Of a stretch of 38,212 nt of DNA, positions 16,644 through 20,554 are shown piece by piece. A program made the translations under genes and the position numbers. Positions within the stretch are counted from its first letter, which is position 1. The number at the start of each line of letters is the position of its first letter. Below the pieces are notes generated by a model that saw nothing but the letters and a program-made list of their open reading frames with translations, was not told the origin of the DNA and did not search any database. The stretch is from Saprospiraceae bacterium (GTDB taxonomy: Bacteria > Bacteroidota > Bacteroidia > Chitinophagales > Saprospiraceae). The stretch lies in the NCBI GenBank assembly GCA_020630555.1, contig JAHDBE010000005.1, positions 329 through 38,540 of the forward strand. The letters are read 5' to 3'.

Positions 16644-17375
16644 TTATACTTGCAAAAACATGGTTATGGTCATTAGGATCATAACCGTGTTTTCTATTAT
16701 TGTCACCTCACTCATAGGTAGATTAAATAAAGTACCCACACAGGCACACTGAATCTTAGTCTTGTTCAAGTTTGCTTGAATAACTCCGATGGTTCCTACT
16801 ATTAAAACGACTAATACTGTCATAAGTAGAATTCTAGGTTGTATCCATAATATAAACCATATGCCAAGAAATAATTCTAGAATTGGGTAAAACCAAGCAT
16901 ACACAGAAACAGGTTTAGCGATAATATCATACTGACGAAAAGCCGCAACGAAACCTGACCAATCTAAAAATTTAAAGAACGATAGCATTACAAAAAAGCC
17001 AGCCATCATATGTCTCATCCATCTCATTGAGTCAAAGGCATCGTTCGAATATTCTACGACGGAGCTTATAACGGTTACGAATAATAAAATAAGTAAAAGG
17101 GGTTTATAGGTTTTGATTTTCTCTTTCACTTTCGTGAAAAAATCTGTGTTGTCCATGATTGGAGAAACATCATAATTTCCGACTTTCGAAATAATCGATC
17201 TGAGTTCGTCCAAACTTAAATCAAACAAACTTGTAATAAGACTTGACTCTGGTGCCAATTTTACTTCCGCGGCACGAATGGAATTTTCGCTTTCCAAGGC
17301 CTTTTTTACTTTGGAAACACAGTTCTGACAGGTCATGCCCGTGATGATAACTGACTTATTATATAGGACTCCCAT
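16644..17375 (-). CDS. Heavy-metal-associated (HMA) domain fused to MauE/DoxX-like membrane domain
   Basis: The N-terminal part (about 1-75) is an HMA metal-binding fold with GMTCQNC, whose two cysteines would bind Cu(I) or a similar ion. A linker follows, then four to five membrane segments: LLLILLFVTVISSVV, MMAGFFVMLSFFKFL, YPILELFLGIWFILW, ILLMTVLVVLIVGTIG and a last one near the C-terminus. The motif QCACVGTLFNLPMS and the general layout recall MauE-type proteins. I place the start at the ATG ending at 17375; an upstream in-frame extension would overlap the divergent sigma gene and has no HMA similarity. A role in copper handling or thiol redox is plausible but not shown. No copper ATPase is nearby. 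Confidence 0.8.
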   Translation of the reverse strand: MGVLYNKSVIITGMTCQNCVSKVKKALESENSIRAAEVKLAPESSLITSLFDLSLDELRSIISKVGNYDVSPIMDNTDFFTKVKEKIKTYKPLLLILLFVTVISSVVEYSNDAFDSMRWMRHMMAGFFVMLSFFKFLDWSGFVAAFRQYDIIAKPVSVYAWFYPILELFLGIWFILWIQPRILLMTVLVVLIVGTIGVIQANLNKTKIQCACVGTLFNLPMSEVTIIENTVMILMTITMFLQV

Positions 17376-17451
17376 AGTTAATTCGCTTTTATTAAAAACA
17401 AGTTTCGCTAAAAACATTTGACATTTTGCAATTACAAAGTCATCTTTATTT

Positions 17452-18003
17452 GTGGACTTTAGCCAACTCGACGATATGACACTCATCAGACGTTATCAAA
17501 AAGATAACGATGTCGAAGCGCTTTCTCACTTATTTATTAGATATAAAACAATGGTTTATGGGGTATGTTTGAAGTATCTCAAAAACTCTTCTGAAGCTGA
17601 AGATGCGACCATGGAATTATATCAAGTCCTCTTAAGACGAATAAAAAATAAGAATATTGATCAGTTTAGAACATGGTTTTACGTACTAGTAAAAAACCAT
17701 TGTTTCGAAGAACTGCGTTCACATTCGCGTAAGCGAGAAAAACAAGAAAATGCAGACATTGTGTATTCACAGAATATTTATCATCCTAATAGTAAAGGAA
17801 AAGAAGATGAACTCATTAGGATGCATGCCTGTTTAGAAAAATTGAAGGTTGATCAAAGAGAAAGTGTACGTTTGTTTTATTTGGAGCAGAAAACATATGA
17901 AGAGGTAGGCAAGCTCCTCAATTTAGAATGGAAAAAAGTCAGATCACATATTCAAAATGGACGCCGTAACTTAAAAATATGCATGGATAAAAATGTCAAT
18001 TAA
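17452..18003 (+). CDS. ECF-type RNA polymerase sigma factor, paired with an anti-sigma-like gene
   Basis: A 183-residue sigma-70 family factor. Region 2 covers about 25-90 (LFIRYKTMVYGVCLKYLKNS, then WFYVLVKNHCFEELRSHSRK). Region 4 covers about 125-175 (CLEKLKVDQRESVRLFYLEQ, then KTYEEVGKLLNLEWKKVRSH). The frame begins with GTG at 17452; an ATG at 17476 (MTLIRRYQ) is an alternative. A possible -7 element TTTATTTG lies at 17446-17453 with TTTG at 17425-17428. If that promoter is real, the GTG lies inside it and the ATG would be the start. The gene overlaps the next one by 11 bases, the usual arrangement for a sigma factor and its membrane-bound regulator. Confidence 0.92.
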   Translation: MDFSQLDDMTLIRRYQKDNDVEALSHLFIRYKTMVYGVCLKYLKNSSEAEDATMELYQVLLRRIKNKNIDQFRTWFYVLVKNHCFEELRSHSRKREKQENADIVYSQNIYHPNSKGKEDELIRMHACLEKLKVDQRESVRLFYLEQKTYEEVGKLLNLEWKKVRSHIQNGRRNLKICMDKNVN

Positions 18004-19291
18004 CAATACACATAGCGATGGTTTTTATTTAGAATTGCTTGATCAACTGGCACAAGGCAAAATAACTCGTGATGATCTATACCTTTTGCAGAAAAGAGCC
18101 CTTGATGATCCGTTTATAGCGGATGCACTAGAGGGTTTTATTGACCATGACAATGAGGACCATACTGCCATAATCGATCGTATAAAACCGTCAAGACATG
18201 TGCATACTGAGAATAAAATACGCCGTATGTGGTGGCCTATTGCAGCGTCTATTTTACTTATTGCCGTTTCGGGAGTTTTATATTTTGACTCTACTAGGAC
18301 GAGCGATTTTGTGGAATCCGAATCTTCCGATTCCAGTGAAATCCCTATTCTTGCCCAGGGTAAAACAGAAGAGGCTAATGACCGAATTAATGCCCTTTTA
18401 GAGCCTTTGGAGGAAAAAGAGGACTCCAATATTTTAAGTAAAGATCTTTCCAAAAAATCAAAGAAAACAGCGAATCCCGCAGAAAAGAACCTACAACCTA
18501 AAGAGGATGTAGTATCTCAAAAAAGCAAGAAAACCTCTGAAAAATTGACTCATGAAAATGAGCCATTAGATGAGTCGAGTGTTGATGAAGAAATCGCTAG
18601 TGTACCAATAATTCGAGGGAGCTCGAGTCGCGTTCAAGAGGTTCAAATTGATGGAGTTCCGATCCAGACGAAAACTTCAATAGAATTGAATAGCCTTAAA
18701 GGGCGCGTATTGGATAGAAATAAAAATGTTTTAATCGGGGCGCAAGTTGTTGTGACTGATGCGCTATCTAATAGTTCTGTAACTAGCACAGATATGGATG
18801 GCAACTTCAATTTTGATAAACTGGATACAGGAGAAGTAGAATTAAAAATCGCCTATACGGGTTACGAGCCTTATGTCATGGGAAACATGTATATAGAACC
18901 TGGTCAAAACCTTATGGAGGTTGAGATGGTCGAAGGAGCCCTGTTAGATGAAATAGTGGTTTTAGATTATGCCCAGGCTAAAAAGAAATCCAGTATTGAG
19001 AATTCTTACAAACAAGATGTGAATGCCTTGCCTGAAATGGGTTATGAAGAATTAGAGCTATTTGTGCATCGTGAAAAAGTAGTAATGCAGTCAGATTTTG
19101 GATCTGTTGGCTATGTACTATTACAATTTCTTATTCTCGAAAATGGAGAAATAGATCAAATCAAAATCATCGAATCGACAACCACCTCACGAAACTCCGA
19201 AGCCACCCGGATTATTAAGGATGCGGGTAAATGGAAATTAAAAGAGGGAATACAAGCCCCTTATTTAATGACTTATCGAATGGATTTCTAG
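17993..19291 (+). CDS. Anti-sigma-factor-like membrane protein with carboxypeptidase-regulatory-like and TonB-C-like domains
   Basis: A 432-residue single-pass protein. The short N-terminal cytoplasmic part (1-79) has LLDQLAQGKITRDDLYLLQK and DPFIADALEGF, a pattern seen in Bacteroidota anti-sigma regulators. The membrane segment is at about 80-98. A charged Lys/Glu/Ser linker covers about 100-200. Residues 206-224 (IIRGSSSRVQEVQIDGVPI) look like the IRG...IDGVPI core of a TonB-receptor plug. Residues 235-312 are a carboxypeptidase-regulatory-like domain (LKGRVLDRNKNVLIGAQVVV to IAYTGYEPY), followed by LLDEIVV, as at the plug entrance of SusC-type receptors. The last 60 residues resemble a TonB C-terminal domain. 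It overlaps the sigma gene, so it most likely controls it. How the signal reaches it is unknown. Confidence 0.75.
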   Translation: MSINNTHSDGFYLELLDQLAQGKITRDDLYLLQKRALDDPFIADALEGFIDHDNEDHTAIIDRIKPSRHVHTENKIRRMWWPIAASILLIAVSGVLYFDSTRTSDFVESESSDSSEIPILAQGKTEEANDRINALLEPLEEKEDSNILSKDLSKKSKKTANPAEKNLQPKEDVVSQKSKKTSEKLTHENEPLDESSVDEEIASVPIIRGSSSRVQEVQIDGVPIQTKTSIELNSLKGRVLDRNKNVLIGAQVVVTDALSNSSVTSTDMDGNFNFDKLDTGEVELKIAYTGYEPYVMGNMYIEPGQNLMEVEMVEGALLDEIVVLDYAQAKKKSSIENSYKQDVNALPEMGYEELELFVHREKVVMQSDFGSVGYVLLQFLILENGEIDQIKIIESTTTSRNSEATRIIKDAGKWKLKEGIQAPYLMTYRMDF

Positions 19292-19363: not shown

Positions 19364-20554
19364 ATGAAATTTGGACAGATATTAATTTGGGTAATTTTAG
19401 TGGGATTCGGTTTTTACTTGGGCACGGGTCTAAAAACAACGAATACCTCAGAATTAGATTTAGAATCCATTCCGACAGGAGCAGATGCAGATTTTAATGG
19501 GGAGCCCGCTGTTAAGAATACACAAGTGGCCTCTGTTTCTACAGAACGTACGCCAAATTGGGATGAAAATGCCACCGTCATTGTAACAGATGTAGAGAAA
19601 GCGACAATTGAGCTTTTCGAAAAATCTGCACCATCTGTAGTTTTTGTTACATCCACAAGTCTTGAAAGTGATCGCTGGTCTAGAAATGTTTATGAAATCC
19701 CCAAAGGCACAGGAACAGGTTTTATTTGGGATGATGAAGGTCATATTGTGACTAATTTTCATGTCATAAAAGATGGTCAGAAATGGGAAATAACCTTAGC
19801 CGATCAATCTATTTATCCGGCTGAGCTTGTCGGCTATGAACCCAGAAAAGATCTCGCCGTTCTTAAAATCAATGCCCCTAAAAACAAATTACGTGCTTTA
19901 CCGGTAGGAACATCTTATGATCTTAAAGTGGGACAGTCTGTTTATGCCATTGGTAATCCATTTGGCTTGGACCAGACCCTTACTACTGGAGTGATAAGTG
20001 CCTTGGGCCGCGAGATAGAGTCCCTAGCAAGAATTCCAATTAGAGATGTAATACAGACAGATGCCGCGATTAATCCTGGAAATTCGGGAGGACCTTTGTT
20101 AAATTCATCAGGAAGACTAATTGGTGTAAATACCGCGATTTATAGCCCATCAGGAGCTTCAGTAGGCATAGGATTTTCAATACCAGTTGACATCGTGAGT
20201 TGGGTAATTCCCGACTTAATCGAATTTGGAGAAGTCCGAAGACCTATGTTAGGTGTAGAATTGGTATCCATGCAGCTAATGGAAAGATGGGAAATAGAAG
20301 GAGCGATGATCGCTGCATTAACACCAAATGGGTCCGCATCAAAAGTAGGTATGCAAGATACTCAAACAGGAACTCAAGGAGGGATACGTCGATTTGGAGA
20401 TATTATCGTCGGTATAAATAACGCCGATATAAAAAATAATAACGATCTGATTTTAGCTTTAGAAAAATATAAGCCGGGTGATGTAGTCCAAGTAAAATTT
20501 ATCCGAGACGAACAGGTACAAAACCTAGAAATTAAATTAGGATCTTCTCTTTAA
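19364..20554 (+). CDS. DegP/HtrA-type periplasmic serine protease (S1C) with PDZ domain
   Basis: Degrades or refolds damaged envelope proteins. The N-terminal hydrophobic segment (about 5-21) is a membrane anchor or uncleaved signal. The trypsin-like domain has the complete triad: His133 in TNFHVI, Asp163 in RKDLAVLKI and Ser241 in INPGNSGGPLL. One PDZ domain follows (about 280-396), with RRPMLGVELVSM, FGDIIVGINNADIKNNNDLI and a closing PGDVVQVKFIRDEQVQNLEI. At 396 residues with one PDZ it is closer to DegS or plant-type Deg1 than to two-PDZ DegP. It follows the sigma/anti-sigma pair by 72 bases, so it may be an envelope-stress target of that sigma factor; this is inference. Its stop shares TTAA at 20551-20554 with feoB. 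Confidence 0.95.
   Translation: MKFGQILIWVILVGFGFYLGTGLKTTNTSELDLESIPTGADADFNGEPAVKNTQVASVSTERTPNWDENATVIVTDVEKATIELFEKSAPSVVFVTSTSLESDRWSRNVYEIPKGTGTGFIWDDEGHIVTNFHVIKDGQKWEITLADQSIYPAELVGYEPRKDLAVLKINAPKNKLRALPVGTSYDLKVGQSVYAIGNPFGLDQTLTTGVISALGREIESLARIPIRDVIQTDAAINPGNSGGPLLNSSGRLIGVNTAIYSPSGASVGIGFSIPVDIVSWVIPDLIEFGEVRRPMLGVELVSMQLMERWEIEGAMIAALTPNGSASKVGMQDTQTGTQGGIRRFGDIIVGINNADIKNNNDLILALEKYKPGDVVQVKFIRDEQVQNLEIKLGSSL

Follow-up and report, generated by a model that had tools for sequence, protein, structure and literature searches.

In this study, we analysed a window of 38,212 nucleotides, meaning the whole stretch of DNA from the Saprospiraceae bacterium assembly GCA_020630555.1 (contig JAHDBE010000005.1), and within it the 432-residue protein P0001. 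P0001 is the candidate anti-sigma factor of an extracytoplasmic function (ECF) sigma factor gene that lies immediately upstream. Its periplasmic half joins a SusC-type NTE domain, a TonB-box motif and a TonB C-terminal-domain (TonB-CTD) fold, and the homology of these three parts to receptor and TonB parts is supported by profile and structure comparisons. The presence of parts of the TonB uptake system in a membrane regulator suggests a gene switch whose input comes through TonB-type contacts and not through a normal surface receptor. The sigma factor gene and the parts of P0001 are listed below with their evidence; residue numbers refer to P0001.

17452..18003, + strand: ECF sigma-70 factor gene (PF04542 5.6e-10, PF08281 2.9e-10, TIGR02937 1.4e-24)
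17993..19291, + strand: candidate anti-sigma factor P0001, 432 amino acids, with TonB-system parts (open reading frame (ORF) list, domain searches, model)
18017..18211, + strand: cytoplasmic helical N-domain, residues 9-73, with motif DPF..DALEG (four helices before the transmembrane (TM) helix in both models)
18218..18289, + strand: single TM helix, residues 76-99 (hydrophobic by eye; helical in the model)
18608..18664, + strand: plug-signature-like hairpin, residues 206-224, in a disordered linker (custom plug models, relatives)
18689..18940, + strand: SusC-type NTE / CarboxypepD_reg domain, residues 233-316 (Pfam, PDB sequence search, structure comparison)
18944..18961, + strand: TonB-box motif LDEIVV, residues 318-323 (pattern, directly after the NTE as in SusC)
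19019..19288, + strand: TonB-CTD fold, residues 343-432 (Pfam, structure comparison, genome-wide TonB_C search)

Receptor-type and TonB-type parts of P0001 and its relatives

The preliminary description of this DNA had named a carboxypeptidase-regulatory-like domain followed by LLDEIVV as in SusC-type receptors, and both were found. Pfam matched the domain as PF13620 (2.8e-12; 47.3 bits against 32.3) and PF13715 (8.2e-11; 42.2 bits against 32.2), in each case above the gathering cut-off. The only solved sequences matching P0001 at E<=1 were 6ytc, 5t3r and 9hfj, which are SusC-type N-terminal domains or receptors. In the structure model, the NTE aligned with the SusC NTE of 9hfj at Z 11.5 (root-mean-square deviation (rmsd) 2.2, 80 residues aligned) and with the carboxypeptidase D TTR domain 5aq0 at Z 13.0, showing a seven-stranded Ig/TTR-like fold. 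The structure matches obtained with the whole P0001 model fell mostly on one domain, and a family missing among them is not thereby excluded.

The TonB box of SusC Bt1763, VDEVVV, has been probed by deletion and mutation (PMC7782687), and it occupies the same position as LDEIVV in P0001. A box motif was present at the NTE end in 74/98 family proteins with an NTE, compared with 478/20000 random windows of 30 residues. This count was obtained with a looser pattern; a strict pattern, placed within 75 residues before the CTD, gave 56/105. Three relatives (L069, L114 and L156; L-numbers denote the loci of relatives) score for no NTE yet keep a box before the CTD, and in L114 and L156 this box is the start of a plug piece.

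The C-terminal TonB-like domain was borderline by sequence and is upheld by its fold. Pfam TonB_C scored 21.5 bits on P0001, slightly under the cut-off of 24.6, and 24.9 bits, slightly over it, in the genome-wide search. Residues 343-432 of the model aligned with the TonB-CTD of H. pylori (5lw8) at Z 9.3 (rmsd 2.3, 81 residues aligned). The distance from the NTE end to the CTD start had a median of 17.5 residues (n=94). No barrel domain was among the P0001 matches, and TIGR04056 covered only its positions 3-97 of 981. A FecR-family or STN match in Pfam was not obtained at E<=1, in searches in which the HMMER filters drop most matches above about 0.1. As a separate observation on TonB_C domains, one open frame in the window's own genome, G000 (G000:C44, at L173 1-2052), holds a BlaR1/M56 peptidase, two TonB_C domains and a type IX secretion system (T9SS) sorting tail, an odd mix for an inner-membrane protein.

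The model of P0001 was an AlphaFold2 monomer built from a 76-row alignment (mean pLDDT 71.8, pTM 0.33). These 76 rows (alignment A5) were P0001 and 75 of the 80 named loci described below; L099, L136, L140, L154 and L160, which lie at contig ends, were omitted. In order, the model showed four N-terminal helices, the helix at 76-99, a low-confidence linker at about 100-230, the NTE at 233-316, a low-confidence box region and the C-terminal domain, with the NTE and the C-terminal domain as its well-defined parts.

The anti-sigma-like label of the preliminary description is retained on the strength of the ECF sigma gene immediately upstream and, weakly, of fold. The ORF of P0001 starts 11 nt inside the 3' end of that gene. 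From the gene position, and to a lesser degree from the fold, we infer that the sigma factor is bound by the helical domain at the N-terminus. D39, P40, F41, A45 and G48 were unchanged across the 76 rows, which had themselves been fetched by a pattern spanning the DPF..DALEG motif. The anti-sigma model NF052375 matched 9/76 rows, P0001 not among them. Foldseek returned RsiW (E 3.4) and MucA (E 6.4) among 13 matches, none of them significant, and the N-domain reached Z 4.5-4.8 to anti-sigma structures. The zinc motif Hx3Cx2C was found in 0/76 members within the first 110 residues. About 44% of ASDIs are without this motif, which is optional in that class (PMC7406223).

A role of P0001 as an energised TonB was considered and set back. 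Residues 76-100 of P0001 contain no TonB-type His; among the 76 members, any His fell in the TM-helix columns in 11 and the S-H/H..S pattern in 2. Because the TM helix is without the conserved His that couples to ExbBD, P0001 is probably not an energised TonB, and force transduction by it is unlikely.

The fusion suggested by the preliminary description was then sought next to other ECF sigma genes. For the named set, GTDB genomes were scanned with an 18-row alignment of the N-terminus, and the best 80 of at least 450 confirmed relatives (at least 591 stretches) were kept, so that counts for this set describe those best 80 and not the whole phylum. Two further sets comprised same-family loci (window included) and class/phylum loci; the searches at phylum and class level were limited to 4-5 scored candidates in each genome, and absences there carry little weight. 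Where a named locus had 650 nt or more of upstream sequence, a homologous sigma gene always lay immediately upstream on the same strand (77/77); the testable same-family loci (21/21) and class/phylum loci (15/15) likewise all had a sigma gene directly upstream. Of the named proteins, 76/80 were complete at the 3' end, and by local models 59 of these had both NTE and TonB-CTD. On the 76 alignment rows, Pfam found PF13715 in 64 and TonB_C in 58, and NCBIfam found tonB_Cterm in 51. The most conserved positions included DPF..DALEG (also the search pattern), the NTE glycines and TonB-CTD residues. These results indicate that many Bacteroidota have the combination beside an ECF sigma gene, that several families of the phylum have retained it, and that it consists of parts homologous to receptor and TonB parts and not of generic beta domains. 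A GDSL lipase match was also seen in 2/76 members, probably L095 and L117, which are Chitinophaga proteins without NTE and TonB-CTD.

Plug pieces in the linker

The preliminary description had also reported a plug-like sequence, IIRGSSSRVQEVQIDGVPI, which corresponds to residues 206-224. This part of the claim stood as a hairpin backed by relatives; as a plug domain it did not, since P0001 holds a hairpin-sized piece, which may be a remnant. P0001 had no PF07715 match at E<=1, and Pfam, NCBIfam and PDB sequence searches found no plug in P0001 alone. Of 29 candidate plug regions, 4 were dropped, and the other 25, which are receptor-type fragments, served to build a plug hidden Markov model (HMM). 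The linker of P0001 scored 9.1 bits with this HMM, a value reached by 3/5000 shuffles and 1/2212 pieces of other proteins. With a signature-only model it scored 4.4 bits, reached by 1/5000 shuffles and 3/2212 pieces. Thus, the hairpin alone is only modestly above chance, and the case is carried by homology with the relatives.

With thresholds set above the best of 5800 shuffled linkers, plug pieces were found in 20/113 anti-sigma linkers with a sigma neighbour, the window being included through the signature model only. In the control, 4/2212 pieces passed, one of them at 36.1 bits, like a real plug. L038 and L091, the closest relatives of P0001 on the sigma tree, have the hairpin in the same linker, and L046 also carries a similar one. 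Much fuller plugs occupy this linker in L094 (Chitinophaga, PF07715 2.1e-9) and L137 (Mucilaginibacter galii, PF07715 1.2e-11), which are two of the 3/76 members with a Pfam Plug. The plug in the linker of L141 (Mucilaginibacter) is unlisted by Pfam and was matched by TIGR04056 (3.1e-74), TIGR04057 (1.5e-13) and the custom model. In the linkers of L132, L162, L114, L156, L135, L165 and L169, we observed pieces resembling a TonB box followed by the first part of a plug. These pieces look as if receptor fragments had been captured repeatedly.

The hairpins of anti-sigma proteins were also compared with hairpins in a divergently encoded vWA protein found at many of these loci. In L046 and L141, the vWA hairpin that most resembled the anti-sigma hairpin came from the same locus. 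This did not hold for L091, so that a same-locus likeness is not general; the vWA hairpin of L137 was outside the comparison. Recent DNA copying between the two hairpins of L046 was rejected, as the peptides were identical at 19/26 positions (by eye) and the DNA at only 47/78 nt, which places the likeness at the protein level.

Neighbouring genes and the proposed mechanism

The relatives' loci were picked by the anti-sigma N-terminus and not by YfbK. An opposite-strand gene for a YfbK-type vWA protein lay within 3.5 kb upstream in 31/70 named loci and in 10/18 same-family loci (window included), all with at least 3.5 kb of upstream sequence. Of these vWA genes, 25 in the named set and 5 in the same-family set stood head-to-head beside the sigma gene (gap of at most 350 nt), and the others lay farther away. 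Ten divergent neighbours were scanned: in eight, vWF_A, VWA and YfbK_C were accompanied by an NTE, with an additional Plug match in two of them, and the remaining two neighbours were of a different vWA type with T9SS tails. An NTE was found in 44/50 vWA ORFs over 300 amino acids, and a box motif followed it in 40/53 vWA ORFs with an NTE. A Plug was present in the vWA neighbours of L141, L091 (under the cut-off) and L145; the vWA neighbour of L137 had none at E<=0.001. In the sister genome G070, the vWA gene and a second vWA gene lie between the sigma gene and the HMA-MauE gene, and both are missing from the window. Over residues 30-183, the G070 vWA protein is 54% identical to part of a 1231-residue receptor-like frame in the window's genome (G000:C176, in L007), and by this likeness the vWA protein looks like a barrel-less pseudo-receptor. 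The divergent YfbK/vWA protein is a candidate partner of the anti-sigma protein in many relatives. In L038 (10411-12195) and L051 (9575-11341), another vWA protein, with VWA_4, an NTE-like domain and a T9SS tail, was seen in the divergent place beside the sigma gene.

Downstream of P0001, the window encodes a protease:

19364..20554, + strand: HtrA-type serine protease with one PDZ and an N-terminal hydrophobic stretch seen by eye (PF13365 1.8e-36, PF13180 5.1e-9)

In L038, L042 and L148, an HtrA gene likewise follows the anti-sigma gene, at distances of 85, 293 and 132 nt, respectively; in L051 it is 1643 nt downstream, with an opposite-strand gene between. The best NCBIfam model was TIGR02037 at 297 bits, below the cut-off. 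The label DegS was tried and rejected, as TIGR02038 gave 207 bits against a cut-off of 423; the protein is DegS-like in layout only (one PDZ, hydrophobic N-terminus). It may be a lineage-specific site-1 protease. On the other side of the gene pair, a fusion of an HMA domain with a MauE-type membrane domain is encoded at 16644-17486 on the - strand, and its start overlaps that of the divergent sigma ORF as listed. Another ECF sigma gene is found at 115-723 on the - strand, close to the contig edge.

Recognition of the TonB box by TonB is normally an energy-coupling contact. We propose that the P0001 family uses it for docking and release, and give this explanation as a whole a probability of about 0.45. 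The N-terminal helical domain would capture the sigma factor. The TonB-CTD-like domain would be a docking module and not a force transducer; from the periplasmic side it, perhaps together with the NTE, would bind a partner that bears a TonB box or NTE. For many relatives, the YfbK-type vWA protein encoded by the divergent gene would be this partner. In the window's genome, in which YfbK was not found, the partner could be a TonB receptor, or the box of the same or a neighbouring molecule. An altered contact, for example under envelope stress or receptor traffic, would expose the regulator to proteolysis, and this cleavage, here perhaps by the downstream HtrA, would free the sigma factor. The scheme would resemble the surface signalling of PupB-PupR or FecA-FecR, except that NTE/TonB-CTD parts would take the role of the STN parts.

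Previous reports provide precedents for several steps. Other sigma regulators are known to release sigma through regulated proteolysis (PMC9249621). The STN subdomain of PupR is homologous to the signalling domain of its receptor and is required for binding (PMC7186176). In the PUMA3 system, VreA combines an STN-like domain with a TolA/TonB-like CTD (PMC2729926). A more far-reaching proposal is that Bacteroidota use cell-surface signalling without a barrel. A YfbK-type vWA pseudo-receptor with a SusC N-terminus (an NTE, a TonB box and in some cases a plug) would present its TonB box to a TonB-CTD moved into the anti-sigma factor, a contact that normally couples energy would convey information instead, and certain anti-sigma factors would even keep a receptor plug captive. 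We regard this proposal as doubtful.

Several results weigh against the docking explanation. The fold likeness of the N-domain to anti-sigma structures is insignificant (E 3.4 and worse), and its top Foldseek match was a Pif1 helicase. Among the 76 complete named proteins, 10 had a TonB-CTD without an NTE, 3 an NTE without a TonB-CTD, and 4 neither. No box motif was found in 24/98 family proteins with an NTE, and the box stretch of P0001 is predicted to be disordered (pLDDT under 50 at 319-338), with no strand in the monomer model. No YfbK/vWA gene was found within 3.5 kb in 39/70 named loci, and no YfbK_C domain in the window's genome, which is 87% complete and 6% contaminated. The plug pieces are patchy (20/113), so a plug cannot be essential, and the trait needs 13 changes on the sigma tree (a quick method, with 40/110 inner branches open), which means that it comes and goes. 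Plug pieces occurred in both the anti-sigma protein and the vWA neighbour in 6 cases, in the anti-sigma protein only in 6, in the vWA protein only in 7, and in neither in 35; this co-occurrence is suggestive only (Fisher p 0.027, not corrected for relatedness, with thresholds chosen after seeing the shuffles).

P0001 could instead be an envelope-stress sensor of the RseA/DegS type, whose periplasmic half is mainly a protease-sensitive tether cut by the downstream HtrA, with the TonB-type domains as mere building blocks. The position of the single-PDZ HtrA (Pfam, window copy) agrees with this: its gene directly follows the anti-sigma gene in the window, L038, L042 and L148. In L051 it is 1.6 kb off, and the anti-sigma protein of that locus has no scoring NTE or TonB-CTD. 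The C-terminal residue of the anti-sigma protein is F in 40/105 members with a TonB-CTD, which also fits. HtrA occurs in 4/19 same-family loci (window included) but in only 1/70 named loci, each with at least 3 kb downstream, and it scores under the DegS and DegP/Q model cut-offs. The NTE, box and CTD are retained far beyond the HtrA-bearing loci, and we consider the stress-sensor explanation unlikely.

The docking could also occur within the regulator, its TonB box pairing with its own or a neighbouring TonB-CTD until an external TonB box or TonB displaces it. Box and CTD share one chain, the NTE-to-CTD distance has a median of 17.5 residues (n=94), and the box is kept in the three proteins that score for no NTE. 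The box is nevertheless of low confidence and forms no strand in the AlphaFold2 monomer, and such a self-docking switch seems quite unlikely to us.

The preliminary description had raised the possibility that the regulator mimics receptor parts or competes with them at TonB, and so would act as a decoy. The receptor-type box and NTE, and the plug pieces of some members, would suit a decoy, but the best-supported part besides the NTE is the TonB-CTD, which is the receptor-binding side and not the receptor side, and plug pieces pass the threshold in only 20/113 linkers; we therefore hold it to be improbable. Ordinary domain shuffling, with a chance hairpin in P0001 and NTE and TonB_C as generic periplasmic beta modules without a TonB-related role, would fit the weakness of that hairpin alone and the absence of a Pfam Plug from P0001, yet is similarly improbable in view of the much fuller plugs that L094, L137 and L141 carry in this linker, the hairpin in the two nearest sigma-tree relatives, the box motif far above chance, and the retention of the combination across several families of the phylum.

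Relation to known systems

All domains of P0001 have been described and annotated before, and other regulators that contain receptor-like or TonB-like parts exist. In the literature covered (full-text searches judged by titles and the beginnings of abstracts, and passages of selected papers), we found no match for the combination, its spread, the vWA neighbour or the captive plugs. Of the ECF sigma factors of Bacteroidetes, only 6% are reported to have a class I anti-sigma factor nearby (PMC7406223), and the P0001 family may account for the control of part of the remainder. The family poses the question of whether contact between a TonB box and a TonB-CTD can carry a signal instead of force, and the divergent vWA gene points to a likely partner in several cultured species. 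Sigma, anti-sigma and adjacent vWA genes occur together, for instance, in Mucilaginibacter galii (L137), Pedobacter glucosidilyticus (L162) and Ohtaekwangia koreensis (L098).

Regulators of the FecR/PupR type (PMC7186176, PMC9249621) are similar in having an anti-sigma N-domain, one TM helix and a periplasmic domain homologous to the N-terminal signalling domain of the receptor. PupR has CJM and STN in the periplasm, whereas the P0001 family has the NTE (PF13715), a TonB box, the TonB-CTD and sometimes a plug; unlike the FecR/PupR systems, the window has no directly adjacent receptor gene. VreA of the PUMA3 system of Pseudomonas aeruginosa (PMC2729926) is likewise a signalling component in which a receptor-type N-terminal domain and a TolA/TonB-like CTD are combined without a beta-barrel. 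However, VreA is a separate, mostly soluble periplasmic protein beside the regulator VreR and carries an STN, whereas here the parts, with an NTE, are inside the anti-sigma candidate itself.

The N-terminal part of SusC/RagA (PMC7782687) shares with the P0001 family the same NTE, the same box position and, in some relatives, the plug. The P0001 family differs in having no barrel, in placing the plug before and not after the NTE, and in sitting in an inner-membrane regulator. TonB_C proteins of the M56/BlaR1 type (for example G000:C44, at L173) are also inner-membrane signalling-type proteins with TonB_C domains, but that example is a metallopeptidase and shows no NTE or Plug among its Pfam matches at E<=0.001. 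The divergent vWA protein of the relatives has the domain families of YfbK-fold vWA proteins, which include proposed force transducers (PMC12204202). Many of those are TM-tethered, carry SHLS motifs and lie beside motor genes, whereas the vWA protein described here has a SusC-type N-terminus and is encoded opposite a sigma gene.

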